A stretch of 64,000 nt of DNA from Dethiobacter alkaliphilus (GTDB lineage Bacteria > Bacillota > Dethiobacteria > DTU022 > UBA8154): the NCBI GenBank assembly GCA_016841605.1, contig JAENYV010000010.1, positions 1-64,000 on the forward strand, in the 5' to 3' direction. The notes beneath the pieces are model-generated. The model saw only the letters and a list, made by a program, of their open reading frames with translations, made no database searches and was not told where the DNA came from. This document shows positions 47,005 to 61,279 of this stretch, in pieces. Every line of letters begins with the position of its first letter. Position 1 is the first letter of the stretch. The position numbers were made by a program, and so were the translations under genes.

Positions 47005-47307
47005 CTATCTTTTGAGATGTTGCATATAGCGTTTTAGTTCAACATAGAAGTTTTCGCGGGTACCGGCGAGTATAATAACAACAGTCTCGCCATTTTCATC
47101 AATAATGGTGTAGGCAAGCTCGTAGTTATTCTTATTGTAAAAAATATCGCAGCAATATATGTCGGTAAGATCGCCGGTTTTTTGTTCGCCAAAATAAGGA
47201 TTTACTAGAATCTGATCAATAGCTGCTTGGAATTTAGCTTTCAATTGTTTCTCTTTAAGCTTTTTAAGATATCGAGCGGCGGGAGGTAAAATAATGAGCT
47301 TGGTCAT
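47005..47307 (-). CDS. RelE/ParE-type toxin
   Basis: A 100-residue toxin of the RelE/ParE superfamily (mRNA-interferase or gyrase-poison fold). The N-terminus reads ILPPAARYLKKLKEKQLKAK, typical of the helix hairpin of these toxins. The strands ELAYTIIDENGETVVIILAG and a C-terminal EFYVELKRY-like end (ENFYVELKRYMQHL) complete the fold. ATG at 47307 has GGAG eight bases upstream; the earlier GTG at 47316 overlaps the antitoxin stop. It follows the antitoxin gene within five bases. Confidence 0.8.
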   Translation of the reverse strand: MTKLIILPPAARYLKKLKEKQLKAKFQAAIDQILVNPYFGEQKTGDLTDIYCCDIFYNKNNYELAYTIIDENGETVVIILAGTRENFYVELKRYMQHLKR

Positions 47308-47312
47308 TAGTC

Positions 47313-47648
47313 TCACTCCGGGCCAAAAACATCTTCATAGGTATTGCTGGATGCTTTCCCTTTAGTGGCAAGACGTGCTTCATCAAGTAAGCGTTCCACG
47401 GCAGGCCTGATTTGCTGACGAATTTCCTTAAATTTATCAAGAAGTTCTTGACCTGTAAATCCCTGAGAAATTAAATCAGCAAGGATTTGTTCATCAAATT
47501 CTCCACTGTTTTCCCGTACCGGACGAATTACGATGGCATTGTTTTGGACGAAGCACTCTACTTCTTTTTCGATGCCCACGCTGTTATAAAATTCAATTGG
47601 AATGGTTATCTGGCGTTTTTTAGATACGGAGATACGTTTTTTATGCAT
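47313..47648 (-). CDS. AbrB/MazE-type antitoxin
   Basis: A 111-residue protein with an N-terminal swapped-hairpin DNA-binding domain (ISVSKKRQITIPIEFYNSVG, the SpoVT/AbrB/MazE signature) and a helical tail (about 55-105) that would wrap around the toxin. As antitoxin it would repress its own operon and neutralise the RelE/ParE toxin encoded just downstream. Pairing an AbrB-type antitoxin with a RelE-type toxin is a known mixed arrangement in Clostridia. Confidence 0.8.
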   Translation of the reverse strand: MHKKRISVSKKRQITIPIEFYNSVGIEKEVECFVQNNAIVIRPVRENSGEFDEQILADLISQGFTGQELLDKFKEIRQQIRPAVERLLDEARLATKGKASSNTYEDVFGPE

Positions 47649-48959: not shown

Positions 48960-49320
48960 AATATTCTACTCCACAGAAACATTTTTTATTGCGGCCTTGA
49001 CCATAAAAGAGTTTTCGGAGGTGATTACATCAAAAGTACCGACAGTGAGGGGCAGATACAATGCAGCAACCGGTACGGTTGCATATACAGGGCAATGACC
49101 TGTGCAACTGCAGGCAATTGGTGAACTGCCTGAAGGCACAGCCGGAAAATCCCTAACAGACTTTAAGGATGCCGGCCGGATAGCCCCCTGGGCAAAGGAA
49201 GCTGTGGAACTGTTTGTCATAACCGGGGTAATAAGCGGCAGCCGCGGCATGCTTTTCCCGGAGGCTACATCAAGCAGGGCTCAGATGACGCAGCTTCTTT
49301 ATAATATATTAGCAAAATAG
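48960..49320 (+). pseudogene. SLH/S-layer protein 3'-end remnant
   Basis: A frame from 49102 reads FKDAGRIAPWAKEAVELFVI, then TGVISGSRGMLFPEATSSRA and QMTQLLYNIL, a complete final SLH domain with the usual ending. Upstream, another frame (about 48960-49098) gives KVPTVRGRYNAATGTVAYTG, beta-rich as in S-layer proteins, and ends in TGA. The rest of the gene, including signal peptide and earlier SLH units, is missing. A terminator closely resembling that of the intact SLH gene follows at 49479-49510. Confidence 0.7.
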
Positions 49321-49835
49321 AGAAGGCCTGGGCCAGGTGGAAAGGTTGAAATTGAAACCGTGATGCGGATAGAACCGGCTAAGCCCGAAAACCCCTCCCG
49401 TCCCGGCTTCCCTTACAGATACTGCGGAGAAAGGGTAATAAAGAGTATAAATTCCGACTAAAAAATAGAGGCGTGAAAAAAGCCCGGTCCTAAAAAATGG
49501 TCCGGGCTTTCGTTTCTACGCGTACTATAGATAGATAAACCGGGAATTGGTTCAGAATGCTGTAAAAGCTTTCTGCAACTGGATTAAATTCTATGAACAT
49601 TTATCTGTGTTTTTTAATATATTATTTTTAGGGGCTTATTTTGAAAATAGAATAATTGGAAAAATGATAAAAAGAGGTGAAGCTAAAGTTTGAGATATAT
49701 TTTTCCCGGGCCTTTCATTAACGGAATTCCACGAAAAATGTGTATAACTCTCAGTACTGTATTTTGGAAGAGTTTGTATCTTACATATGATGCAGGAATA
49801 GGAAAAAGACAAAGCTTATGTGGAGGTAGATAATA
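49321..49835. other. Intergenic region before the gas-vesicle-like operon
   Basis: It holds one terminator (49479-49510). The stretch 49511-49835 leads to the GvpF/L gene and is AT-rich, with no promoter that I can assign with confidence. GGAGGT stands 10 bases before the gene. Confidence 0.45.
49479..49510 (+). terminator. Terminator after the SLH remnant
   Basis: AAAGCCCGG (49479-49487) pairs with CCGGGCTTT (49502-49510). Stem and loop nearly match the terminator at 41218-41254, supporting a duplicated origin. Confidence 0.8.
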
Positions 49836-50729
49836 ATGGCATCCCTGAAGGAAAGTAAAAACCCGGATGAGCCTGTTGCAGATAAGAAAGGACTATATCT
49901 GTACTGTCTTATGCAAGGGGGTGCAGTAATTAACATAAATCAAAAGGGGATTGACAGTCTGAGCCCCCTTTTGGGCATACAATACCGCGATCTTGTTGCT
50001 GTTGTCAGTGAGATAGAACTTGATAACTTTAAATCACATACTACAACTGAAGGCAAAGAAATTGATATGGATTGGCTGGAAGAAAAGGCGAGAGCCCATG
50101 AAAGAATTGTCGAAGAATTAATGATGGAGAATGATATCCTCCCGGCCAAATTTTGTACTATTGTGAACGGCGACGAAGGATTAAAAGCTTTTCTGACAGA
50201 GAACTACAATGAGTATGTGCAAGCATTGCAAAGATTGAAAGGACGTCAGGAATGGGATGTTAAAGCATATATAAGTTTGGAAAAGCTTAAACAGTTTATT
50301 ATGGATAATACTCCGGAAATACGGGAGAGGGTAGAAATGCTTCCCTTCATGTCAACTTCGGGTACTTATCTAATTATGCGCAAAATTGAAAGAATGACTG
50401 ATGAACGAGCCGCGAAACGCTTTAAGGATATTGTTCTATATATTGGAAAGGCACTCAGGGCTGTCTGTGATGATGAATCATTCGCTAATCCGGAATCTCC
50501 GAAAGATCAGCAGACCGAAACGCCGATTGTTTTTAAAGCTTTTTATCTGGTTGAAAAAGGTCTGCTGCAAAATTTCGATGATCGGCTGAATGAGTTGTCG
50601 GATGAACTGGAACCGGAAGGTGTTACTTTTAAAATAACCGGACCCTGGCCTCCATACACGTTTGTAAAAGATGAGAAAAAAGAGTACGTGGAGCAGTCTT
50701 TAGCCGGGCTGTTCATGCCATGGAAATAA
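49836..50729 (+). CDS. gvpL: GvpF/GvpL-type gas vesicle protein (first copy)
   Basis: A 297-residue GvpF/L family protein. The N-terminal segment KKGLYLYCLM starts the first alpha/beta domain; VAVVSEIELDNF and AHERIVEELMMENDILPAKF carry the family's EKARAHE and PxKFCT hallmark. The C-terminal end ITGPWPPYTFV is the classical GvpF/L finish. In known systems GvpF/L contact GvpA and prevent premature aggregation or seed assembly. It is the first gene of a rightward cluster that runs to 57082. Unlike usual gvp loci, no plain short GvpA precedes it. Confidence 0.92.
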   Translation: MASLKESKNPDEPVADKKGLYLYCLMQGGAVININQKGIDSLSPLLGIQYRDLVAVVSEIELDNFKSHTTTEGKEIDMDWLEEKARAHERIVEELMMENDILPAKFCTIVNGDEGLKAFLTENYNEYVQALQRLKGRQEWDVKAYISLEKLKQFIMDNTPEIRERVEMLPFMSTSGTYLIMRKIERMTDERAAKRFKDIVLYIGKALRAVCDDESFANPESPKDQQTETPIVFKAFYLVEKGLLQNFDDRLNELSDELEPEGVTFKITGPWPPYTFVKDEKKEYVEQSLAGLFMPWK

Positions 50730-50786
50730 TTTGAAACGGTGCATTTTGCTCTGTTTTGAGTCGGTAAAGAAGGGATGATTTGAGAG

Positions 50787-51188
50787 ATGATTGAGGCAGT
50801 TCGGGACAAAAATGATAAATCATCACTGGTGGATGTTATAGACAGGCTTCTGGATAAGGGCCTGGTTATTAATGCAGATATAACGGTATCCGTAGCCGGC
50901 GTTGAGTTGTTGGGTATAAAGGTAAGAGCCGCCCTGGCCTCTTTTGCCACTGCAGCAAAGTATGGTCTTGAATTTCCCTCCGGCACTAATTATCAAACCG
51001 CTGCCTGGCAGGAAGCACAAGCAGGCGTAGAATTATGTCCCCAGTGCGGTAAAGAAGTAAGTAAAGAAGAATTGTTGAATGAGTGCTGCCCCTGGTGTGG
51101 CTGGATCAGCGCAAAAGCTGAAATGAAGCTGAAAGAGAACGAAATGCAGGCAGCACAAAAAATAGCGGCTCCTATTCCACAAAAATGA
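50787..51188 (+). CDS. GvpA/J-like protein with C-terminal zinc ribbon
   Basis: A 133-residue protein. Residues 12-60 (SSLVDVIDRLLDKGLVINAD, then ITVSVAGVELLGIKVRAALA) match the amphipathic core of GvpA/J/M, the gas vesicle shell family. Residues 84-104 then form a zinc ribbon with CPQC and CPWC pairs (C84, C87, C101, C104). I know of no such fusion as a usual gas vesicle part. The core has the helix-strand-strand-helix order expected for self-assembly. The tail (105-133) is charged. GGGATG-type spacing upstream is acceptable. The same ribbon type recurs in the protein at 53839. Confidence 0.85.
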   Translation: MIEAVRDKNDKSSLVDVIDRLLDKGLVINADITVSVAGVELLGIKVRAALASFATAAKYGLEFPSGTNYQTAAWQEAQAGVELCPQCGKEVSKEELLNECCPWCGWISAKAEMKLKENEMQAAQKIAAPIPQK

Positions 51189-51257
51189 TAAAGACCTGCC
51201 TTACCGGATGTTTCTATAGAGTATTGTTATGAGAAAAATGAGCAGAGGATGAACAGC

Positions 51258-51719
51258 ATGGAGAAGTTTCCAGCAAGCGATTTGCGTCTATTCATGAATG
51301 CCCTGGACAAAAAGAGCAGAAAAATTATCTGGTACTTCCGTTATCATAAGCACGCCAGGCTTGACGAACTGACGGAGCTTATTGGTGCTTCTGCCCATAT
51401 GGAGACCTTATACAGGCTGAAAAAAGTAATTAATCCTGCCGCAGCAAGAATCCTGGGAAGACCTTTATTAGAATTCTGTGAGTCCCGGATTGACCGGAAA
51501 ACCGGAAAGAGGGTCCTTTTTAGTTGGTGGCTCTCCGACTTTCTAGTGGAAGGCCGGCTGATGTCGGATGAAAGAGAGAAGCCTTTAATTGACGTTTTTG
51601 ATGAAATAGACCGGATTATCATTCTTTATGAGGTATCTCCCGTGCTTAGGTTGAGTGATAAGGTAAAAGTAGAGCAGCGGCAAGGTATTTTGAGTATCAC
51701 ACTCGAGAAAATACAATAA
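51258..51719 (+). CDS. Winged-helix/Hsp20-like protein of the Gvp cluster
   Basis: A 153-residue protein. The N-terminal part (about 10-65) looks like a winged helix (ARLDELTELIGASAHMETLY), then RVLFSWWLSDFLVEGR. The C-terminal 45 residues (PLIDVFDEIDRIIILYEVSP, then VKVEQRQGILSITLEK) resemble the Hsp20/GvpH beta-sandwich. In gas vesicle loci GvpH is a small-heat-shock-like protein. The exact family is uncertain. ATG at 51258 follows GAGG; an ATG at 51249 is less well placed. It stands between the GvpA/J-like protein and GvpK. Confidence 0.55.
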   Translation: MEKFPASDLRLFMNALDKKSRKIIWYFRYHKHARLDELTELIGASAHMETLYRLKKVINPAAARILGRPLLEFCESRIDRKTGKRVLFSWWLSDFLVEGRLMSDEREKPLIDVFDEIDRIIILYEVSPVLRLSDKVKVEQRQGILSITLEKIQ

Positions 51720-51852
51720 ATTTTCAATTATATTTATTGATACATATATGCTCCGGATAAGGGAATCCACCGGGAAATACCTGCCGTTTAAACGGCTTAA
51801 AGTCTCTGGAAGAAGTTTCGGGAAGAGGGATCAATAAGGGGATTAATCGCGT

Positions 51853-52164
51853 ATGGCACTTGATATTAATGAGGATAATTTGAAACACGGCTTGCTGGGG
51901 TTGGTTATGGCTTTGGTGGAAATAATCAGAGACTCCCTGAAACATCAGGCCCGGGAAAGAATTAAAAGCAAGATTTTGTCGGAAGCAGAGATAGAAAGGT
52001 TAGGACGCGCCTTGATGGAGCTTGATAAGGCCATTGAGAACATCAAGGAAGAGCAGGGAATTACCGAATCCGTAAAAGGAGTAAGAGACGGATTGGATGA
52101 AATTGTCGACAGTGTTATCGATAGAATTATTAACCCTGAGAGATGGGAAGAAGAAGCTGAGTAA
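51853..52164 (+). CDS. gvpK: Gas vesicle protein GvpK
   Basis: A 103-residue GvpK. The N-terminal helix INEDNLKHGLLGLVMALVEI, then IRDSLKHQARERI, and the acidic helix LSEAEIERLGRALMELDKAI match the family throughout. It is normal in length. GvpK is required for gas vesicle formation in known systems but its precise role is unclear. Its presence confirms that the cluster derives from a gas vesicle locus. It is 188 bases before the next assigned start; a small hairpin (GAAAATAC/GTATTTTC near 52203-52225) lies in that gap. Confidence 0.95.
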   Translation: MALDINEDNLKHGLLGLVMALVEIIRDSLKHQARERIKSKILSEAEIERLGRALMELDKAIENIKEEQGITESVKGVRDGLDEIVDSVIDRIINPERWEEEAE

Positions 52165-52351
52165 CAGGCTTCAGGAAAGCCGGCGGGCCGGAAAACTACC
52201 CTGAAAATACCATTCTTGTATTTTCCTCCATCTGATGTGCCCCGTTTTGTGGGGGCATGAGGTTAAACTGTGGTTTATATATATTCACCCGGCGCAGCAG
52301 CAGGCTCAGTTGGCCCATGGGTTAAAATGCTTTGTAAAGGCAGGGATGTTG

Positions 52352-53500
52352 ATGGAATATTTATACATGTCTATGTTTTTACAGGAGGTTGGAAAGGAGA
52401 TCAACGAGGAAAATATACGTAAAATTTTTGCTGCTCTGGATATGGAAGTCGATAACGCAAAAGTTCAATTTTTTCTTCCTGCCTTATTTATTCTGGCAGC
52501 CGGGAAAAAGAAAAAAATAGCAAAGAGTTCGGATGAAACTTCGTTTTCTCAACAATTAGGCCCCGTGCAAAAACAGTTTGAGGAGTTTAAAAGTTCTTCG
52601 GCAACCATTGATGAGCCACTAACAAATGATGAGCGAATGACAAAACTTGAACCGGAGCAGCCGGATACGTGCACGGAAGTTCCTACACATGATGAGAATA
52701 TTCATAATCTACCGGCCAGATACGTCTATGGCCTGGCTGATCAAGGAGTCGGAATCAAGCTGGATGTAAAAGGCCTTGATGGTGCAGAAGTATACACTAT
52801 TCCATATAAAGAGATGTGTATCGTTGTTCATGATTGTTTAGCCGAGCCGTACAAATCAGATGATGAGACAGTGGTAAAAGAGTGGCTTTTTACCCAGCAG
52901 GAAGTGCTGGATGCCGTCGCAGAGAAATTCGGCGTGGTGCTTCCCATGAGCTTTGATATGATTATTGAGGGAAAGAACGGACAAGATTCCGAACAAGTGG
53001 TAAAAGAGTGGCTGGAGAAAAATTATGACACTTTTATGGAAAAAATATCCGGACTGAAAGGCAAGCAAGAATTCGGAGTTCAGGTATTTCTTGATACGGA
53101 ACTCTTAAGTGCCGAACTTCTGGAAAAGGATGAAGAACTGAGGGAAAGAAAGAAAGAGATTGACGCTAAACCGGAAGGGATAGCTTATATGGAAAGAGAG
53201 CTGCTGAAGGATTCGCTGAAGGAAAAGATTGAGGCGACAGCGGATCAGTATTTCAGAGAGTTTTACAGTATGATAAGAAAATGGACGGATGATATTGTGA
53301 TCGGGAAAGTTAAAAAAGCCGGGGGAAATAAGCAAATGCTGATGAACTTATCCTGTTTGGTCAGGAAGGATATGGTGGAGGAAGTGGGTAAAGAGCTTGA
53401 AAAAATTGAAAATATCAAGGGCATAACTGTACGGTTTAGCGGCCCGTGGGCACCCTATAGCTTTGTCACTCCTGAAAAGGTGGCTACGGAAAATGATTGA
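52352..53500 (+). CDS. GvpF/L-type protein with an N-terminal archaeal P1 stalk-like domain
   Basis: A 382-residue protein from the ATG at 52352, chosen because AGGG lies about seven bases upstream and because the domain begins there. Residues 1-50 read MEYLYMSMFLQEVGKEINEE, then NIRKIFAALDMEVDNAKVQF. This closely resembles the N-terminal dimerisation domain of the archaeal ribosomal stalk protein P1/aL12. A low-complexity acidic linker (about 60-115) follows. Residues about 120-375 are a GvpF/L region (RYVYGLADQGVGIKLDVKG, LPMSFDMIIEG, ending FSGPWAPYSFV). P1 domains dimerise, so this could make a dimeric GvpF/L. Its last bases overlap the start of the next gene. Confidence 0.85.
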   Translation: MEYLYMSMFLQEVGKEINEENIRKIFAALDMEVDNAKVQFFLPALFILAAGKKKKIAKSSDETSFSQQLGPVQKQFEEFKSSSATIDEPLTNDERMTKLEPEQPDTCTEVPTHDENIHNLPARYVYGLADQGVGIKLDVKGLDGAEVYTIPYKEMCIVVHDCLAEPYKSDDETVVKEWLFTQQEVLDAVAEKFGVVLPMSFDMIIEGKNGQDSEQVVKEWLEKNYDTFMEKISGLKGKQEFGVQVFLDTELLSAELLEKDEELRERKKEIDAKPEGIAYMERELLKDSLKEKIEATADQYFREFYSMIRKWTDDIVIGKVKKAGGNKQMLMNLSCLVRKDMVEEVGKELEKIENIKGITVRFSGPWAPYSFVTPEKVATEND

Positions 53501-53873
53501 ACCGATTCTGGCTGATGGAGAAAAAATTATCTTAGAAACCCAGGGCAGCATACAGTTTAGATTAACGTGGCAGCTTGGACATTTATTTCTTACCGACAGG
53601 CGGCTGATTTTCATCCAGGTTGCTACAATATTGTGGGAATGCAGACTGGACAAAATAATAGATTTAAGTGTCAGGAGAAGAAGCTGGTTGCTGGGGATTA
53701 AAATAAATCAACTCTGTATCGAACTCACTAGCCGGAGCAGGATTAAAAATGTTTATCTGGCCTTTGCCGGGCCTGATAAATGGGTTGATGTGATTAAAGA
53801 GAATATGGCACTTATGCTGGCGGGAAGGTGGGGGAGCAATGGAGCCGAACAGGAGTCGCCAGGCAACGCTTAA
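53493..53873 (+). CDS. Stand-alone GRAM/PH-like protein
   Basis: A 126-residue protein with one GRAM/bacterial-PH-like domain: a beta hairpin, LGHLFLTDRRLIFI as the conserved strand pair, then KIIDLSVRRRSW and a C-terminal helix. Such domains often bind membranes or lipids. ATG at 53493 overlaps the end of the previous gene; a TTG at 53463 is a poorer start. The same xLTDxRL motif occurs twice in the protein encoded next, which it overlaps by 35 bases. The function in a Gvp cluster is unknown. Confidence 0.7.
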   Translation: MIEPILADGEKIILETQGSIQFRLTWQLGHLFLTDRRLIFIQVATILWECRLDKIIDLSVRRRSWLLGIKINQLCIELTSRSRIKNVYLAFAGPDKWVDVIKENMALMLAGRWGSNGAEQESPGNA

Positions 53874-54957
53874 TGATTTGATTGATCGAATTTTTGATAA
53901 AGGTATCCTGTTAAATACAGACCTGATTATATCTGTGGCCGGGATTCCTTTACTTGGTGTTAACCTTAAGCTGGCTCTCGCCGGGATGGAAAAAATGTTG
54001 GAATACGGTATCATGAAAGATTGGGATGAAGCGCAGCGTGCGGTGGCCTCTCAAGAAGCAGAAATGAAAGGGCCTTCCCTGGGAGAAAATGAAAATACTA
54101 TTTTTTCAATGTTCGGGACCCACTGGTACAGCAAAGGCATCTACAATAGCTGGAGGGCAGGGACAGTATATATTACAGACAAAAGATTGATCATGTTCAG
54201 GAAAATGCCGGCTGAGATTCTGCTGGAAATATCTTATGAAAAGATCAAGGCTATGACCATCCGAGAAAGGGAGCATTTTACCGGCAAAAAGCGACAGGAA
54301 CTCCATATCTTATCGAAGGATGAAGAGATAATCAAACTGCATACCAATGATACTTTTTTGTTGAAACAGGCTCTTGAAGATATTTTGAAGAACAAGAAAT
54401 TCAGCCTGGAAGATAATCAGTCTTTCCCTGAAAAGAAGGAAGTGCAGGGGGATTTCCTTTATCCTGAGGAAGAGGTCTTTAATTCGGGGAAAATCTGGTA
54501 CCAGATGCCTTTTACCTCTGAAGGTAGTGTGCGCTATGTCTGGAAGCCCGGACATTTATATCTTACAGATAAAAGGTTGTGCTGGTGGTATGATTTTGAG
54601 AAAAAGCTCATTTTTACCGTACCTACAGCTGAAATTTTGCATGTTACTGTCCATGATGTGCCGTTTGGAAGTGTTTTAGTGCAGGGAAAATCTTTAATAG
54701 TAATGTACAAAGAGGAAATGGAGAATAAAGTAGTCTGCTTCCATGATGATGAAACTTCTCTGCGTGAATGGGAGAAAGTTATTCGTGAATTGATTAAGGG
54801 ACATGGAGACGGTAAAAATACCGAAACTTGCCCCAGATGCGGCAGAAAAGCACCAAAAGAGAACTTGCTTGAAAATGGGTGTTCACGGTGCGGTTGGGTG
54901 AGTTACAGGATAAAAGGGGAGGGGGGAACTAATCGGGATGTGGGATGTGTCCGTTGA
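53839..54957 (+). CDS. GvpA/J-like protein fused to two GRAM/PH-like domains and a zinc ribbon
   Basis: A 372-residue multi-domain protein. Residues about 8-58 are a GvpA/J-type core (LNDLIDRIFDKGILLNTDLI, then ISVAGIPLLGVNLKLALAG). Two GRAM/PH-like domains follow at about 80-190 (VYITDKRLIMFRKMP) and 210-320 (PGHLYLTDKRLCWWYDFEKK). A zinc ribbon (C331, C334, C348, C351; CPRC and CSRC) ends the protein. I know of no described gas vesicle protein with this order. The domains suggest a shell-family core that can touch membranes through GRAM modules and recruit partners through the ribbon. It overlaps its neighbours on both sides. Confidence 0.85.
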   Translation: MEPNRSRQATLNDLIDRIFDKGILLNTDLIISVAGIPLLGVNLKLALAGMEKMLEYGIMKDWDEAQRAVASQEAEMKGPSLGENENTIFSMFGTHWYSKGIYNSWRAGTVYITDKRLIMFRKMPAEILLEISYEKIKAMTIREREHFTGKKRQELHILSKDEEIIKLHTNDTFLLKQALEDILKNKKFSLEDNQSFPEKKEVQGDFLYPEEEVFNSGKIWYQMPFTSEGSVRYVWKPGHLYLTDKRLCWWYDFEKKLIFTVPTAEILHVTVHDVPFGSVLVQGKSLIVMYKEEMENKVVCFHDDETSLREWEKVIRELIKGHGDGKNTETCPRCGRKAPKENLLENGCSRCGWVSYRIKGEGGTNRDVGCVR

Positions 54958-57082
54958 CCGGCAAAGGTCCTTATCTCTGAGAGTCCTGGAAGCTGAACCT
55001 ACGGATGTGGGGCGCGGCATCGCAAGAATAGATCCGGATGATTTAAAAAGGCTGGGTGCGGATGTGGGAGATATCGTTTCCATATCCGGTAAAAAGTCTG
55101 CGGCTGCCAAAGCACTGCCAAGCCACATGAAATACCGGGGAAAATCCATAATACAGATTGATGGAACCGGCAGAGAAAATGCCGGTATCCATATTGACGG
55201 TAAGGTAACGGTAAAGAAATGTTCATATTCTTACGCTCGTTCCGTAACCATATCTCCAATCGTTGAAGCCGGCAATGGGGAAATGGGGTGGGATACGGGC
55301 TATATCGGCAGATCACTGCAAGGCTTGCCGGTGACGGAGGGCAACCTGGTTCAAGTCATTTTTTTAGGAGCAAAAGCGGTTACTTTTACTGTAACCGGAA
55401 CATCGCCAAAGGAAATTGTCCTTTTGCATCCTGGTACAACCATTAAAATTGAAAAGTTAAGTGAGACACAGGAGGGCATCGGCAAGGTAGCTTATGCGGA
55501 TATAGGAGGGCTTGGCCCTGAGATACAGAGAATAAGAGAGATGATCGAACTTCCCCTTTTTTATCCGGAACTATTTGCAAGCATGGGAATATATCCACCT
55601 AACGGGGTATTGCTTTACGGTCCCCCGGGGACGGGTAAAACATTGATTGCCAGGGCTGTAGCTGCAGAGACCGATGCACATTTCATCGCAGTCAATGGTC
55701 CTGAAATAATTCATAAGTTTTATGGCGAAAGCGAAGCAAAATTGAGAAGTGTATTCGACGAGGCTGCCGACAGGGCGCCTGCCATAATATTTATTGATGA
55801 GATAGATGCCATTGCCCCCAAACGGACCGAAGTATCGGGCGAGGTTGAGAAGAGGGTGGTAGGGCAGCTTTTAGTGCTGATGGACGGACTTAAAAAAAGG
55901 AAACATGTTGTGGTTATTGGTGCAACCAATATTCCTGATGCAATAGATCCCGCGCTTCGGCGACCGGGTAGATTCGACAGGGAAATTTCTATAAGTGTCC
56001 CCAATAAAGAGGGTAGAGCGGAAATCCTTCAGATTCATACCCAAAACATGCCGTTAGGAAAGGATGTTGATCTGGTAAAGATTGCCGAGATAACACACGG
56101 CTTTGTGGGAGCAGATCTGGAAGCTTTATGCCGGGAAGCCGGTATGGCTGCTATCAGGGAGATAATCTCCGCAAAAAATTTGCACAATTCCATTCCATCT
56201 GAGAAATTGTCCGCGCCGGAGGTCGGGATGGAGCATTTTACATGCGCTATGGAAGAGGTGGAGCCCTCGGCCATACGTGAGGTCTGCGTTGAGATTCCGA
56301 ATGTAAAATGGGATGAGATAGGCGGCCTGGGCGAAATTAAGGCGGCACTTCGGGAGGCAATCGAATGGCCGCTTAAATATAGGGAAATTTTTGATCATGT
56401 CAAAGCCCATCCACCCAAAGGTATTATACTGACAGGACCGCCCGGTACCGGTAAAACACTGATTGCCAAAGCCGCGGCATCGACCGGGAATGCAAACTTC
56501 ATCTCAATTAAAGGCCCGGCTATTTTCTCCAAATGGGTCGGCGAGTCGGAAAAGATGTTGAGAGAGGTCTTTAAAAAGGCTAAACAAGCTTCCCCCTGCA
56601 TTATCTTCTTTGATGAGATCGATGCTCTATCAGGGGAACGGAATGCGGAAGGGGCAGATTCCGGTGTGTCTCAAAGAGTTATGAGCCAGTTGCTGACGGA
56701 AATGGATGGAGTAGAAGAACTGAAAGGGGTTATTGTTCTTGCTGCCACAAACAGGTTGGATCTGGTCGATCCCGCTCTTTTGCGGCAAGGAAGGTTTGAT
56801 CGGATATTTCAAATCCCGGAGCCTGATGAACAGGATAGATGTGAAATATTTAAAATTCATCTGCAAGGAAGACCGCTTGCCGAAGGAGTGGACCCGAAGG
56901 AACTGGCCGGTCAAACTGACGGTTTTGTTGGTTCCGATATTTATGGAGTATGTGAACGGGCAGCTATGAGAGCTATCGAAAAATATTTGGCCAAAGGCGA
57001 TTATTGCTTGGAAAATCTGCTGATTGAAGCTGAGGATATACAATGCGCCATTAATGATATCGTGTGTATGAAAAAAGCTTAA
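54938..57082 (+). CDS. Cdc48/VAT-type double AAA ATPase
   Basis: A 714-residue archaeal-type Cdc48 (VAT/p97) family ATPase. The N-domain (about 1-180) has the double-psi barrel start [21 protein letters not shown]1 has GPPGTGKT near 228, IIFIDEIDA near 283 and the arginine-finger region [12 protein letters not shown]2 has GPPGTGKT near 501 and IIFFDEIDA near 555, with RQGRFDRIF. The family unfolds or remodels protein complexes with ATP. It overlaps the preceding Gvp-like gene by 20 bases, indicating one operon. It may take the place of GvpN, the usual AAA ATPase of gas vesicle loci. A terminator follows. Confidence 0.93.
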
Positions 57083-57139
57083 ATCATATCCGCTTAACCC
57101 TATAGTAATAACTGGCGGTGCCATGGCTGCTATTTATTT

Positions 57140-57167
57140 CCGTGAGGCGAATGTTTCACGGTTTTTT
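57140..57167 (+). terminator. Terminator of the gas-vesicle-like operon
   Basis: CCGTGA (57140-57145) pairs with TCACGG (57156-57161), followed by six T. The stem is short, but position and T-run support it. Confidence 0.65.
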
Positions 57168-57217
57168 GTGTTGATTAAACAGCACTACAGCGAAAAAGTG
57201 CTTACTATTTTTAGATA

Positions 57218-57258
57218 TTGACAAAAAAACTTAGTATAGATAATATTAACTAGGTTAA
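57218..57258 (+). promoter_or_regulatory. Promoter and MarR-type operator for the efflux operon
   Basis: TTGACA (57218-57223) and TAATAT (57241-57246), spaced by 17, form a promoter. TTAAC-TAG-GTTAA (57246-57258) is a 5-bp inverted repeat overlapping the -10 box and is a likely repressor site. Confidence 0.7.
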
Positions 57259-57316
57259 CTATTTTTTGTAATATATTTTTCTTGCTCCCAAAAAGACAGG
57301 AAGGTGTTTTCTGATT

Positions 57317-57766
57317 ATGAAAACCAATATAAGTTCCGGGTTGGAAATTAGCCCGGCTTCTTTGATTCAACTTGCAAGGCTTATTCTTGATATGTTCCGT
57401 TATTTGTCCAGAGACGTCGGGAAAAGGTTCACAGAAGGTATAACCTTGGGGCAGTTAGTATTTCTTAAAAAAATAGATGCCGGTTGCAATAAAGTCTGTG
57501 ACCTTTCAGAGAAACTGCGTATTACTCCCGCAGCTGCCTCCAAAACGGTCGATTGCATGGTTGAAGCTGATTTAATAAGCAGGTTTCGTTCTGAAGACGA
57601 TAAGCGCGTTTCGATTTTAAGGCTGACCGGACGCGGAAAAGAGGCGCTGCACAAAAATATTTTAATCCTGAAAGAGATTATGGACGAGAGTTTTGGCGTC
57701 CTTTCTCAAGAAGAGATCGACGAACTAATCCGAATTTTCACCAAAGTTATTTCACAGTATGATTAA
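57317..57766 (+). CDS. MarR family regulator
   Basis: A 149-residue MarR-type winged-helix protein. The core reads LSEKLRITPAAASKTVDCMV (recognition helix), then SRFRSEDDKRVSILRLTGRG (wing), as expected. N- and C-terminal helices would form the dimer. It probably represses its own operon, which includes an EmrB-type exporter and two adaptors, via the inverted repeat at 57246-57258; a lipophilic compound would relieve this. It lies 43 bases before the exporter gene. Confidence 0.9.
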   Translation: MKTNISSGLEISPASLIQLARLILDMFRYLSRDVGKRFTEGITLGQLVFLKKIDAGCNKVCDLSEKLRITPAAASKTVDCMVEADLISRFRSEDDKRVSILRLTGRGKEALHKNILILKEIMDESFGVLSQEEIDELIRIFTKVISQYD

Positions 57767-57809
57767 ATTATTTTAAGCAAATGTATCATTAGAGAGAAGG
57801 GGTCGACGG

Positions 57810-59342
57810 ATGTTTGCTGAGAAGAGTGTCTTAGAGCAGGAAAAAAATACGGACTGGATTATTCCGACCTTAATAACGGTTATCGGCGGATTTATGGCAA
57901 TTTTGGATGCCAGTATCGTTAATGTGGCTATTCCGACAATGATGAATGATTTTCAAACAACATTATCGCATATTCAATGGGTATCGACTATTTATATGCT
58001 GACGCTGGGAGTTATTGTCCCCACCAGCGGTTGGTTGGGTGACAAGCTCGGATACAAAAAACTCTATATTTACTCCCTGATGGTGTTTACTGCCGGATCA
58101 ACGCTTTGTGCGGCAGCTACTTCAGAAAACCTTCTGATAGTTTCCAGAATTATCCAGGCTATTGGCGGCGGAATGATTATGCCGACGATGATGACGATGG
58201 TTTTCTCACTTGTCCCTAAAGACAGGTTTGGTCAGGCCTCGGCCTTAGTGGGAGTGACTATGATGGTTGCGCCGGCTATTGGGCCGACACTTGGCGGATA
58301 TTTAGTGGAATATATCAGCTGGAGGTGGATATTTACTCTCAATTTGCCCATTGGGATATTGGCCGTCATTTTATCGTTCCTATTTTTACGTGAAATACCT
58401 ACATACCGCGAGGCAGGCAAATTTGATATTCTTGGTTTTATCACATCTTCAGCAGGGTTGTTTTGCCTGCTTCTGGCTTTATCTCAAGGGCAGGATTGGG
58501 GATGGACATCAATGCCTATTGTGTTGTTGTTGTGGATCAGCTGCGGTTTTCTGGGAATCTTTGTTTTCCACGAACTAACAACCTCCAATCCTTTATTAGA
58601 TTTGAGAATATTTAAAATTCCTGTTTTTAGTCTTGGTAATGTGATGACTGCTTTATTTAATATTGTTCTGTTCAGCAATTTGTTTTACGTCCCTTTTTTT
58701 CTTCAATCCATTCGCGGCATGGGAGCATTGGACGTTGGTGTTTTAATGCTGCCTCCGGCGCTTCTTTCTTTTGTGATGATGCCGATTTCCGGATTACTTT
58801 TCGATAAAATCGGACCAAAATTACCGGTTACTATTGGTGCAATTGTGACGGCACTCTCTATTTATTTGTTTTCTCATATCGATATAAATACTCCACTTCG
58901 AACAATAATATTTTGGAATTGCCTTCGTCAAACCGGGATGAGTTTATCAATGATGCCGATACAGAGTGCCTTTATGACGGTCCTTCCCCCTGAATCAGTC
59001 AGCCGGGGGTCCGCGATCAATAATATTCTCAACCGGGTAGCCAGTTCCTTCGGCCTGGCGATCCTGACCCTTTTTGTCACTAACCGTACGGTCCTGCACT
59101 CCACTTATATAGGCTGGAATGTTTCCGGTCAGGCCATTAATGATTTAGTAGCCCATGGAGTGGCGGGACAACAAACAATCACCAATCTTCTGGGAGCAGC
59201 AATTTATCAAATTTCTTTTGTCAAAGCAATTAATGAGATGTTTTTAATTTCAACAGTTTTGAGTTTAATATTGATATTTCCCAGTCTCTTCTTAAAGAAA
59301 GCCCCTATCCGTTCAGGGACTGTCAGTTCGGTTATGGAATAA
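57810..59342 (+). CDS. EmrB/QacA-type drug:proton antiporter (MFS, DHA2)
   Basis: A 510-residue membrane protein with about 14 helices. The N-terminal helix GGFMAILDASIVNVAIPTMM is the DHA2 family motif, and GWLGDKLGYKKLYIYSL is the MFS loop 2-3 motif A. VGVTMMVAPAIGPTLGGYLV is the antiporter motif C. It would export toxic hydrophobic compounds at the expense of the proton gradient. GAGAGAAGGGG lies before the ATG. It is followed by two membrane-fusion adaptor genes, an unusual set for a Gram-positive cell, where no outer membrane channel exists. Confidence 0.92.
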   Translation: MFAEKSVLEQEKNTDWIIPTLITVIGGFMAILDASIVNVAIPTMMNDFQTTLSHIQWVSTIYMLTLGVIVPTSGWLGDKLGYKKLYIYSLMVFTAGSTLCAAATSENLLIVSRIIQAIGGGMIMPTMMTMVFSLVPKDRFGQASALVGVTMMVAPAIGPTLGGYLVEYISWRWIFTLNLPIGILAVILSFLFLREIPTYREAGKFDILGFITSSAGLFCLLLALSQGQDWGWTSMPIVLLLWISCGFLGIFVFHELTTSNPLLDLRIFKIPVFSLGNVMTALFNIVLFSNLFYVPFFLQSIRGMGALDVGVLMLPPALLSFVMMPISGLLFDKIGPKLPVTIGAIVTALSIYLFSHIDINTPLRTIIFWNCLRQTGMSLSMMPIQSAFMTVLPPESVSRGSAINNILNRVASSFGLAILTLFVTNRTVLHSTYIGWNVSGQAINDLVAHGVAGQQTITNLLGAAIYQISFVKAINEMFLISTVLSLILIFPSLFLKKAPIRSGTVSSVME

Positions 59343-59395
59343 GCGCCATAACTGTGGATTAAATTTGTAACAGATAATTTTATGGAGGAGCAGAA

Positions 59396-60100
59396 ATGAA
59401 AAATAAGAAAAAAATATTAATTGGAATGTTTGTGATAATACTTGTTGTGGCGGGAGCCATCATTTTATATTATTGGGAAGAGGGGCGCAATTATGTAAAA
59501 ACGGAGGATGCCAGGATAACAGCGAATACCGTAACCGTCTCTCCGCTCATCTCCGGACGGATTACTTCTTTGAAAGTGCGTGAAGGAGATTTTGTCGGTG
59601 CCGGAAGTACTCTGGGTTGGCAGGAGACCAGTACCATGGCCACTTCAGCCGGAGTCAGCATTAATAGTCTCAATCCGGTTGGCAGTGTGGCTGTCGGCAA
59701 AGCCGAGATTACTGCTCCAATTTCCGGACAGATAATAAAATTGATGGCGGAGCCCGGCCAGATGGTTGGCCCGGGACAGTCTTTAGCGATAATCGCGGAT
59801 ACGGAAGATCTTTATGTTACGGCCAATATTGAGGAAACATCGATTCAAAGGGTAAAACCCGGTCAGGATGTGGAAATCTCGATTGATGCCTTACAAAATA
59901 AAAAAGTATTGGGTAAAGTTGAGGAGATCGGCAAAGCAACTATCTCCACCTTTTCCATCATTTCAACGCAAAGCTCAAACGGCAGCTTTACGAAAGTTGT
60001 ACAGTTGATCCCGGTAAAAATTCGTTTTCCGGGAATTAATAAGCTTGATTTGCTTCCCGGCATGAGTGTGGAAGTTAAAATTCATTTATTTGAGAAATAG
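59396..60100 (+). CDS. HlyD/EmrA-type membrane fusion protein
   Basis: A 234-residue adaptor with an N-terminal membrane anchor (ILIGMFVIILVVAGAIILYY) and a biotinyl-lipoyl-like barrel in two halves (VSPLISGRITSLKVREGDFV and ITAPISGQIIKLMAEPGQMV). There is no long coiled-coil hairpin, so it is shorter than EmrA. It lies just after the exporter gene and ends 15 bases before the next adaptor. It probably helps the exporter couple to the cell wall or pass substrate on. Confidence 0.85.
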   Translation: MKNKKKILIGMFVIILVVAGAIILYYWEEGRNYVKTEDARITANTVTVSPLISGRITSLKVREGDFVGAGSTLGWQETSTMATSAGVSINSLNPVGSVAVGKAEITAPISGQIIKLMAEPGQMVGPGQSLAIIADTEDLYVTANIEETSIQRVKPGQDVEISIDALQNKKVLGKVEEIGKATISTFSIISTQSSNGSFTKVVQLIPVKIRFPGINKLDLLPGMSVEVKIHLFEK

Positions 60101-60115
60101 GAGAGGGGCGAAATA

Positions 60116-61279
60116 ATGTCGGAAAATAGTACTATTTCAAGGGTAGAGAATCCACGTCGGAAGCTTCTTCCGCTTTTCGGGCTGATCATTGTGCTGGGGC
60201 TGGGAATTTTGATATATAGTGTAATGAGCAGTAAACCTGCATTGGTGGCCGAGGGCGGCACTATAAAAATTGGCTGTCCAATCCGGCAAGACTTAGCCGG
60301 AGAAGTGGAAATGACGGGAGTCCTTGATTCAAACGGAACATCAAATATTTCTTCGCAAATTTCAGGGGTAGTCTCTCAAGTAATGGTGAAAGTAGGCGAT
60401 AAAGTTAAAAAGGGCGATGTCCTGCTCTCATTAGACCAAAGAGATCTTCAGATACAGCTCAGTCAAGCCCAAATTAACGTTCAAAAGGCCCAGAATGCTG
60501 CCGACCAGGCCAAAATTGCCTATGAACAGGCAGAAACCGATTACGAACGTAGCCAACAGTTATATCAATCAGAGGTCCTTTCCAATAGCGATTTAGAACA
60601 AATAACACAGAAAAGAGATTTATGCAAATTCCAATATGAGGCTGCCTTGAATATAGGAATCCCAGCAGCCGGGGAGAGTTTAAAGCTGGCTCAACTGGCT
60701 ATGAATAAGACTGATCTGGTTAGTCCGGTCGATGCATCTGTGGCAACATGCAGTATTAACCCCGGTGATTTTATTAATGCTAATACTAGTGGTGCAGTAA
60801 TCACGCTGGTTATGGATGATATAGTAACTTTGGCCGGTAATGTTAATGAAAAATTTATTAATATTCTTCAAGTCGGGCAAAAGGTGGATGTGCAGATTGA
60901 TAATCTGGTGGGAGTTAATGTTAGCGGAGAAATAAGCTATATCAGCCCGGTATCCATTCCGACAGGTCAATTTTTCCCGGTGAAGATAACGCTGCAGAAT
61001 CCTGATAGCCTGCTCAAGCCGGGAATGACAGCCAGCGCCGTAATCCATGTTATGCAGACGGGTTCTGTTACAGTTCCGAAAACGGCCATTATCCGTCGTG
61101 ATGGGCAGACTTGTGTTTTTGTCGTTAAGGATAAAAAGGCAGTCCAGACCTGGGTTATTGTCGGGCTGCAAGGGGATAAATTTGTCGCTATCGATCAGGG
61201 ATTAACAACCGAAGAAGAAATCGTAACAGATGGAACCGATGCTGTTCTGGATGGGATGACTTTGCCCCTTGAGTCTTGA
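60116..61279 (+). CDS. Second membrane fusion adaptor (RND/MacA-type)
   Basis: A 387-residue adaptor with one N-terminal membrane segment (LLPLFGLIIVLGLGILIYSV), a lipoyl-like domain (ISSQISGVVSQVMVKVGDKV), a coiled-coil hairpin (about 110-185) and a beta-barrel (about 220-330). The C-terminal membrane-proximal domain ends near 387. It resembles adaptors of RND or MacAB systems more than EmrA. GGAGAGGGG precedes the ATG. Two different adaptors beside one MFS exporter is unusual. Confidence 0.85.
   Translation: MSENSTISRVENPRRKLLPLFGLIIVLGLGILIYSVMSSKPALVAEGGTIKIGCPIRQDLAGEVEMTGVLDSNGTSNISSQISGVVSQVMVKVGDKVKKGDVLLSLDQRDLQIQLSQAQINVQKAQNAADQAKIAYEQAETDYERSQQLYQSEVLSNSDLEQITQKRDLCKFQYEAALNIGIPAAGESLKLAQLAMNKTDLVSPVDASVATCSINPGDFINANTSGAVITLVMDDIVTLAGNVNEKFINILQVGQKVDVQIDNLVGVNVSGEISYISPVSIPTGQFFPVKITLQNPDSLLKPGMTASAVIHVMQTGSVTVPKTAIIRRDGQTCVFVVKDKKAVQTWVIVGLQGDKFVAIDQGLTTEEEIVTDGTDAVLDGMTLPLES

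Follow-up and report, generated by a model that had tools for sequence, protein, structure and literature searches.

What does a gas vesicle (gvp) operon do when it lacks both gvpA and gvpN? The question is raised by the operon at positions 49836 to 57082 of the window, by which we mean the whole 64,000-nucleotide stretch analyzed here (positions 1 to 64,000 of contig JAENYV010000010.1, assembly GCA_016841605.1, Dethiobacter alkaliphilus). Its eight intact plus-strand open reading frames (ORFs) encode, in order, GvpF/L, GvpJ with a zinc ribbon, a winged-helix/GvpH-like protein, GvpK, GvpL with a P1-like N terminus, a PH protein, GvpM with two PH domains and a zinc ribbon, and Cdc48. An initial annotation, made from the letters alone, had described a gas vesicle-derived operon with domain fusions and a Cdc48 ATPase; ORF calls, Pfam, and NCBIfam recover the same eight genes, named domains, order, and overlaps, and the Pfam cut-offs for GvpL_GvpF, GvpK, and Gas_vesicle (PF06386, PF05121, and PF00741) were all passed within the operon. 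We part from that annotation over function. It had proposed a shell or filament with a different job, which is not supported, given a canonical gvpA-gvpN set in the same genome and the ties of this module to gvp clusters elsewhere. Very probably, the operon is a gas vesicle nucleation and assembly module, the F-J-H-K-L-M half of a gas vesicle set together with its own Cdc48, present here as a second set.

The canonical cluster lies at approximately 20757 to 31093 of contig C8 and contains four near-identical gvpA copies, GvpN, GvpO, GvpG, GvpK, J-like and S-like proteins, three GvpF/L proteins, an Hsp20-type protein, ArsA, and a Cdc48. The one GvpA copy scored reached 116.9 bits (cut-off, 100) and GvpN reached 333.9 bits (cut-off, 266.8), while GvpG, at 29.6 bits, fell just below its cut-off of 30.6. 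The absence of GvpN, GvpG, GvpS, and a plain GvpA noted in the initial annotation is therefore true of the operon and not of the genome. That annotation had also named a canonical gvpA-gvpN set working with these genes as a finding that would speak against a different job; the set is present, and gene content elsewhere suggests that the window module would use the GvpA of C8. Ahead of the four gvpA copies we also observed a divergent GvpA-like ORF of 72 amino acids (aa) with an unusual end (L009:16876-17094, minus strand; Pfam E 0.0066), a 60% relative of which opens the gvp locus of a genome of the same class, G040 (L046:6974-7195).

A search of genome contigs with the GvpJ-zinc ribbon protein (GvpJ-ZnR; JZn in gene orders) returned 259 relatives. 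Loci were taken from the best 80 of these by similarity to the query, and each ORF in them was typed from its best BLAST match; because the query bore a ribbon and types were set in this way, ribbon frequencies are biased upward. Records among the best 80 of 259 were titled Bacillota, Atribacteria, Chloroflexi, Actinomycetota, Desulfobacterales, Nitrospinae, Acidobacteria, and others for bacteria and Methanothrix, Methanoregula, Methanophagales, and Bathyarchaeia for archaea. Judged by these sequence matches, GvpJ-ZnR is a widespread part of gas vesicle clusters in both domains. Wherever the contig was long enough, with few exceptions, it stood in clusters with GvpN, GvpO, Hsp20, Cdc48, or ArsA. 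Among 83 loci, many of them contig fragments, Cdc48 was found in 48, GvpN in 40, ArsA in 37, and GvpA in 29.

In the nearest relatives, the module is contiguous with gvpA, gvpN, and gvpO. UBA1305 has A-O-N-H-Cdc48-FL-G-J and two more gvpA genes (one on the other strand), followed without a break by F-JZn-H2-K-L-PH-M-Cdc48. Clostridium ZS2-4, Lachnotalea, and Anaerosacchariphilus have A, N, O, H, Cdc48, FL, and G and then JZn-H2-K-L-PH-M, and in Anaerobacterium the module is followed directly by A-O-N-H-Cdc48-FL-G-A. A Methanothrix locus (L120) has JZn-M(PH)-K-L beside A-N-O. The complete genome of Formimonas warabiya carries a gvpA locus at 4.69 Mb (A-A-O-N-ArsA-FL-G) that lacks J, K, and M and, at 4.01 Mb, H-Cdc48-JZn-H2-K-L-M, where the sole J, M, and K of this genome lie. 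The module supplies the one GvpK of the genome in UBA1305, Clostridium ZS2-4, Lachnotalea, Anaerosacchariphilus, and Anaerobacterium, and in Formimonas as well. Joint working of the two sets is supported both by the five relatives in which these genes sit next to plain gvpA, N, and O and by the sole GvpK that the module holds in those five and in Formimonas.

An alternative hypothesis is that the products of genes 2 and 7 assemble, without GvpA, into a shell or filament that is remodelled by Cdc48 and has a job other than buoyancy. The operon's own lack of gvpA and gvpN would fit this, as would the separate canonical sets of this genome and of Desulfosporosinus and the 13 of 49 draft genomes in which the module was found and plain GvpA was not. 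Plain GvpA was nevertheless present in 53 of 66 host genomes. These comprised 17 of 17 genomes from loci chosen by hand (at least 59% identity to a relative's GvpA), three of them from records titled complete (L060, L065, and L107), and 36 of 49 further genomes drawn from 50 of the 63 remaining loci (at least 50% identity; E cut-off, 1e-12). The GvpK beside GvpJ-ZnR was the genome's only GvpK in 35 of 47 chosen genomes (6 of 10 plus 29 of 37; the 37 were selected on plain GvpA and on a GvpK at the locus, which fixes GvpA presence among them in advance). Genome-wide searches were confined to GvpK, GvpA-type, and Cdc48 genes; because its GvpK is their only GvpK, the module is probably the only J-K-L-M assembly set of these 35 genomes. 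The presence of GvpA in the hosts, the sole GvpK in the module, and the complementary halves in Formimonas together make the module read as the missing half of ordinary gas vesicle sets. A GvpA-free organelle was rejected as the principal explanation on GvpA co-presence in the 17 hand-chosen genomes, the sole GvpK in 35 of 47, and contiguity with gvpA-N-O in the nearest relatives, and we regard it as very improbable. When an operon of this kind lacks gvpA, the remainder of the genome should be checked before a new organelle is proposed.

Several observations weigh against an assembly module that serves ordinary gas vesicles. In the 13 further genomes without plain GvpA, 12 gave no match and 1 matched its own GvpJ-ZnR only, an absence that is weak because all are multicontig drafts. 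This genome has a second GvpK, on C8, and so do three Desulfosporosinus genomes; since N, O, S-like, K, J, and F/L genes are all present within the two mapped Desulfosporosinus gvpA loci, the module there could do something else. No G, Hsp20, ArsA, or Cdc48 was detected in those two mapped loci, and the Desulfosporosinus module thus brings the only Cdc48. Two genomes of the same class as the window, G040 and G093, have GvpA-family genes and showed no Cdc48, which is therefore not always present. Expression data cut both ways. Methanothrix thermoacetophila, for which gas vesicles are reported, has a two-part set, LF-O-N-A and G-A(J?)-M-K-LF (Mthe_0055-0063 and Mthe_0069-0073), of which the second can be matched to the GvpJ-ZnR-M(PH)-K-L genes of L120 by gene order only (PMC10470525). 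There, the G-A-M-K-LF set and gvpA were both 2- to 3-fold higher on acetate than under direct interspecies electron transfer (DIET), but in the comparison of acetate with DIET plus magnetite the gvpA set changed significantly and the J-M-K-L set did not, and vesicle numbers were not visibly different (PMC10470525).

How did this genome come by two sets? A FastTree tree of GvpJ-ZnR, GvpK, and GvpL from 67 genomes or loci groups the window with UBA1305 (support, 0.999). Both belong to a clade that otherwise consists of Desulfosporosinus and records titled Clostridia (support, 1.0), and the two same-class genomes that have the module, G003 and G093, are placed elsewhere. Horizontal acquisition is the simplest reading of this placement, and the window module is probably a horizontally acquired second set. 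(A contig of another member of the class, Bacillota bacterium GPS1B09, is the exact reverse complement of a G093 contig.) Transfer and the canonical set on C8 would also suit a silent or decaying copy, a relic with no present role. Against such decay, all eight frames are open and the Cdc48 motifs are present, GvpJ-ZnR and GvpK are 92% and 90% identical to their UBA1305 counterparts, and three Desulfosporosinus genomes also retain a module apart from a gvpA locus, two of them with an identical gene order and one with an insertion ahead of Cdc48. We consider a silent relic quite unlikely.

In the Cdc48 of the operon (gene 8), the two Walker A motifs and the two aromatic pore loops are all present. 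Cdc48 docks to the proteasome through a C-terminal HbYX motif; this motif was absent from 46 of 46 Cdc48 tails, both copies of this genome included. Two full-length Cdc48 genes were found in this genome, those of the window and of C8 (52% identical to each other), and Cdc48 is accordingly not peculiar to the window operon, since the canonical cluster has its own. Across 10 genomes, 15 of 15 Cdc48 copies above the family cut-off lay in gvp loci, counting Desulfosporosinus fructosivorans, in which three other genes intervene. At that locus (L050:14200-19165), three unrelated genes, by eye two efflux-like and one TetR-like, separate GvpM-PH-ZnR from Cdc48, unlike in L051 and L052. A survey of 97 genomes of the class found 5 with a GvpA-family gene and 3 with Cdc48 above the cut-off, all three inside gvp loci; those three belong to one family and the genomes of the class share ancestry, so that these counts do not represent independent events. 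In G008, which has no GvpA-family match, a single Cdc48-like match scored 673.8 bits, below the cut-off. In a tree of 46 Cdc48 copies, the window copy groups with the terminal Cdc48 of sister loci, and this terminal group has as its neighbor the first Cdc48 of those clusters (support, 0.85), a placement that suggests duplication of Cdc48 within gas vesicle loci.

The second unusual component is the fusion of interaction domains to GvpJ and GvpM. By sequence, gene 7 begins with a GvpM-like core (Pfam Gas_vesicle E 4.3e-12), for which the haloarchaeal GvpM model of NCBIfam was the best match at 80.5 bits, below its curated cut-off of 109. The two PH domains that follow match 4tyz (domain 1; Z 13.6, root mean square deviation [rmsd] 1.9, 101 residues aligned) and 7yis (domain 2; Z 14.0, rmsd 2.1, 96 aligned) in fold. 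With the stand-alone PH protein of gene 6 (bPH_3 PF14470, E 0.0015, 19.4 bits, below the cut-off of 23), they make up the three PH-like domains that had been proposed. The AlphaFold2 model of gene 7 (mean pLDDT, 73.8) has two PH barrels with C-terminal helices at higher confidence than the GvpA-type core, which was modelled at low confidence (block means of 40 to 59 for residues 1 to 50). The PH folds are well predicted; the models neither support nor exclude the membrane role raised in the initial annotation, and lipid binding is putative. Relatives of gene 6 sit between gvpL and gvpM in the nearest loci. The two zinc ribbons likewise stand, as CPxC...CxxCGW from residue 84 of gene 2 and residue 331 of gene 7.

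Sorted by the extent of their alignment to gene 7, the 68 GvpM-core ORFs of the loci form a series, with 15 plain, 17 with one PH domain, 4 with one PH domain and a ribbon, 31 with two PH domains and a ribbon, and 1 with two PH domains and no ribbon. In an alignment (A2) of the window protein with 30 of 32 long GvpM forms, ribbon cysteines C331, C334, C348, and C351 are invariant across the 31 sequences; at an E value of 0.01 or better, Pfam matched Gas_vesicle in 31 of 31 long forms, Vps36 in 27, and GRAM in 23. A CxxC...CxxC ribbon occurs in 85 of 85 GvpJ-core relatives assigned to the gene 2 type by best match, a count biased by the ribbon of the query itself. The best NCBIfam model for gene 2 is haloarchaeal GvpJ (E 1.9e-28), and because its 98.3 bits are below the curated cut-off of 125, we term the protein GvpJ-like with a ribbon. 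Small extra proteins (approximately 100 to 165 aa) were also observed in L041, L055, L056, L057, L061, L062, L063, L064, L069, and L078; their recognized part is a CPxC...GCxxC ribbon as in GvpJ-ZnR and GvpM, and such a ribbon seems to be common to several proteins of one cluster.

Gene 5 joins a GvpL (Pfam GvpL_GvpF PF06386, E 2.4e-60, 205 bits against a cut-off of 23.6; NCBIfam GvpL equivalog NF045778, 165.8 bits, below the cut-off of 200) to an N terminus that matches the P1 model TIGR03685 over residues 1 to 45 (E approximately 1.4e-8 to 1.7e-8). Its family profile matches the solved gas vesicle proteins 6l5d and 4qsg. A ribosomal P1 protein was rejected, the match covering the first 45 of 105 positions with 34.7 of the 100 bits of the cut-off, and by its sequence the N terminus is a P1-like segment. 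Of the longer GvpL proteins, 11 of 32 have this segment (alignment A4, the window protein with 31 of 67 GvpL ORFs).

Gene 3 had been put forward as possibly GvpH-like. It has no Pfam match, on which account a clear GvpH was rejected, and what stands is a short, weakly Hsp20-like C-terminal part (NCBIfam Hsp20 E 0.0032 at residues 101 to 152, far below the cut-off). Among 27 relatives, HSP20 was matched at an E value of 0.01 at best, in 2 (alignment A3 joins the window protein to 26 of 58 relatives), and PHROGs gave no match for genes 3 and 6. The AlphaFold2 model (mean pLDDT, 86.6) is winged-helix-like, which could mean that gene 3, with the Cdc48 of gene 8, regulates gas vesicle production and takes no part in assembly. 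Fold matches to the winged helix are weak, with a best Foldseek E of 0.035 and a best Z of 7.7, in the "common arrangement" range of the tool (one domain dominates each of the VIA-align structure lists for genes 3 and 7). In the relatives L102 and L112, the C-terminal part resembles by eye a full Hsp20 domain, and a chaperone therefore fits gene 3 better than a regulator does. We think the regulator hypothesis unlikely.

Table 1. Genes and domains of the operon, with positions in the window
Feature	Position	Strand	Match or remark
Gene 1, GvpF/L family, 297 aa	49836..50729	+	PF06386 E 2.7e-50; 64% to UBA1305 orthologue
Gene 2, GvpJ-like core and C-terminal zinc ribbon, 133 aa	50787..51188	+	PF00741 E 3e-17
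Zinc ribbon of gene 2, residues 84-106	51036..51104	+	CPQC...CPWCGW
Gene 3, winged-helix-like N-terminal part and short Hsp20/GvpH-like C-terminal part, 156 aa	51249..51719	+	N-terminal part ~51273-51533; C-terminal part ~51549-51704
Gene 4, GvpK, 103 aa	51853..52164	+	PF05121 E 4e-16
Gene 5, P1-stalk-like N-terminal segment and GvpL	52352..53500	+	Longest ORF from 52235; segment 52352-52486; GvpL 52715-53467
Gene 6, stand-alone bacterial PH-domain protein, 136 aa	53463..53873	+	TTG start
Gene 7, GvpM-like core, two PH/GRAM domains and zinc ribbon, 372 aa	53839..54957	+	
PH domain 1 of gene 7, residues 79-185, Vps36/GLUE-like	54073..54393	+	PF11605 25.8 bits, cut-off 24.1
PH domain 2 of gene 7, residues 211-324, GRAM-like	54469..54810	+	PF02893 27.2 bits, cut-off 23.6
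Zinc ribbon of gene 7, residues 331-353	54829..54897	+	
Gene 8, Cdc48 (N, D1, D2), 714 aa	54938..57082	+	Pfam AAA, CDC48_N; TIGR01243 890.3 bits, cut-off 802.65

The genes had been called tightly packed. This is true of genes 6, 7, and 8, which overlap their predecessors by 38, 35, and 20 bp, and not of genes 1 to 5, which are separated by gaps of 57, 60, 133, and 187 bp (the last counted with the gene 5 start at 52352, where the P1-like match begins, and 70 bp with the longest start). A terminator-like hairpin and T run lie just 3' of the operon (57140..57161, plus strand), although such signals are weak (9 sites in the region against 7.7 expected by chance); promoter-like sites are near chance (18 against 15.3), and Rfam gave no match above the gathering score over 49000 to 57400. 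By eye, the window also has a gene pair resembling a RelE-type toxin and an AbrB-type antitoxin (47005-47648, minus strand) and, directly downstream of the operon, a MarR-like regulator, a major facilitator superfamily (MFS) transporter, and two HlyD-like proteins (57317-61279, plus strand). Elsewhere, a conserved helical-looking protein of approximately 280 to 350 aa (L039:14796-15641) lies near gvpN in many loci, has relatives in 14 of 83 loci, L039 included, and is by eye a candidate GvpC-like shell stiffener.

For an assembly module, we postulate that genes 1 to 7 would form a nucleus that gene 8 would remodel, by analogy with haloarchaea. In haloarchaea, the remaining accessory proteins are attracted by GvpL, GvpA has GvpF as its sole partner, and split-GFP assays show J, K, and M binding to GvpL alone (PMC7688916; PMC9501494); J/M/S-type homologues are found in purified bicones and not in the cylinder wall (PMC10903477). 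GvpL, with its P1-like N terminus, may accordingly be the platform that gathers accessory proteins, to which GvpF would bring GvpA, with J and M acting early and in the conical tips. The zinc ribbons on J and M and the PH domains on M and gene 6 could serve as additional docking sites, keeping the nucleus in one piece or anchoring it to a surface, and Cdc48, which lacks the proteasome-docking tail, might pull apart misassembled or finished nuclei rather than feed the proteasome. All functions given here to the PH, ribbon, P1-like, and Cdc48 parts are suggestions. A stronger version, in which nucleation is tethered and reversible, the PH domains of GvpM and gene 6 placing the nucleus at a membrane or other surface, the ribbons locking J and M into it, and a gas vesicle-specific Cdc48 dismantling nuclei or vesicles, seems doubtful to us; if it were true, an unfoldase would join collapse and dilution as a means of ending buoyancy. 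The module is real, widespread gas vesicle machinery, and its noteworthy parts are the dedicated unfoldase and the fusions of interaction modules (PH, zinc ribbon, and P1-like) to the presumed nucleus proteins J, M, and L across many phyla. The GvpM series, from no PH domain through one PH and one PH plus ribbon to two PH plus ribbon, is material for probing where the nucleus is located and whether disassembly is active.

The unfamiliarity of these parts, remarked on in the initial annotation, extends to the literature. Open-access sources, seen mostly as titles and abstract beginnings and including few subscription journals, yielded no PH or zinc ribbon fusions on GvpM or GvpJ, no P1-like GvpL, and no gas vesicle Cdc48, and the words "Cdc48" and "GRAM" are absent from two reviews (PMC9501494 and PMC10903477). 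One paper that contains both gas vesicle and Cdc48 terms concerned a contaminant of a purification. Extensions of gvp proteins do have precedent, since a zinc finger in haloarchaeal GvpC (PMC9501494) and, in a cyanobacterium, a GvpJ with an extension and a GvpK that includes a GvpA-like domain (PMC10903477) have been described. The Desulfobacterium vacuolatum cluster yields vesicles in Escherichia coli (PMC10344784), and gene names do not tell its module type.

Comparison with known systems places the parts in context. Gene 8 has the domain make-up (N, D1, D2) of archaeal and eukaryotic Cdc48 (p97/VAT), with paired Walker A motifs and aromatic pore loops, but it lacks the HbYX tail, and in the ten tested genomes Cdc48 is confined to gvp loci. 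The middle of gene 7 is predicted to resemble in fold the tandem-PH protein BBS5 (Foldseek E 2.0e-9) and the GLUE domain of Vps36 (EAP45; Z 12.8, rmsd 2.8, 104 residues aligned); the likeness is one of fold alone, and the PH pair of gene 7, in contrast, is fused between a GvpM core and a zinc ribbon. ArsA and Hsp20 were described in gvp operons in a 2010 study of ArsA homologues (PMC2963123), the same kind of cluster as C8 and many loci here, but the accessible parts of that study make no mention of Cdc48, zinc ribbons, or PH domains, and the window operon has no ArsA. The gvp genes of M. thermoacetophila form a two-part set, as here, with no Cdc48 in the printed table (PMC10470525), and in the related L120 the M protein carries a single PH domain and lacks a ribbon, unlike gene 7. 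A similar layout is that of gvpFGHIJKLM of Halobacterium salinarum, a single operon that likewise unites F, J, K, L, and M with an H-like gene and is separate from gvpA-C-N-O. Relative to the haloarchaeal operon, that of the window lacks G and I and adds a PH protein and Cdc48. Its proteins are also longer (372 and 133 aa for genes 7 and 2, against 84 aa for haloarchaeal GvpM and 114 aa for GvpJ [PMC9501494]), with a zinc ribbon on J, a pair of PH domains plus a ribbon on M, and a P1-like segment on L.

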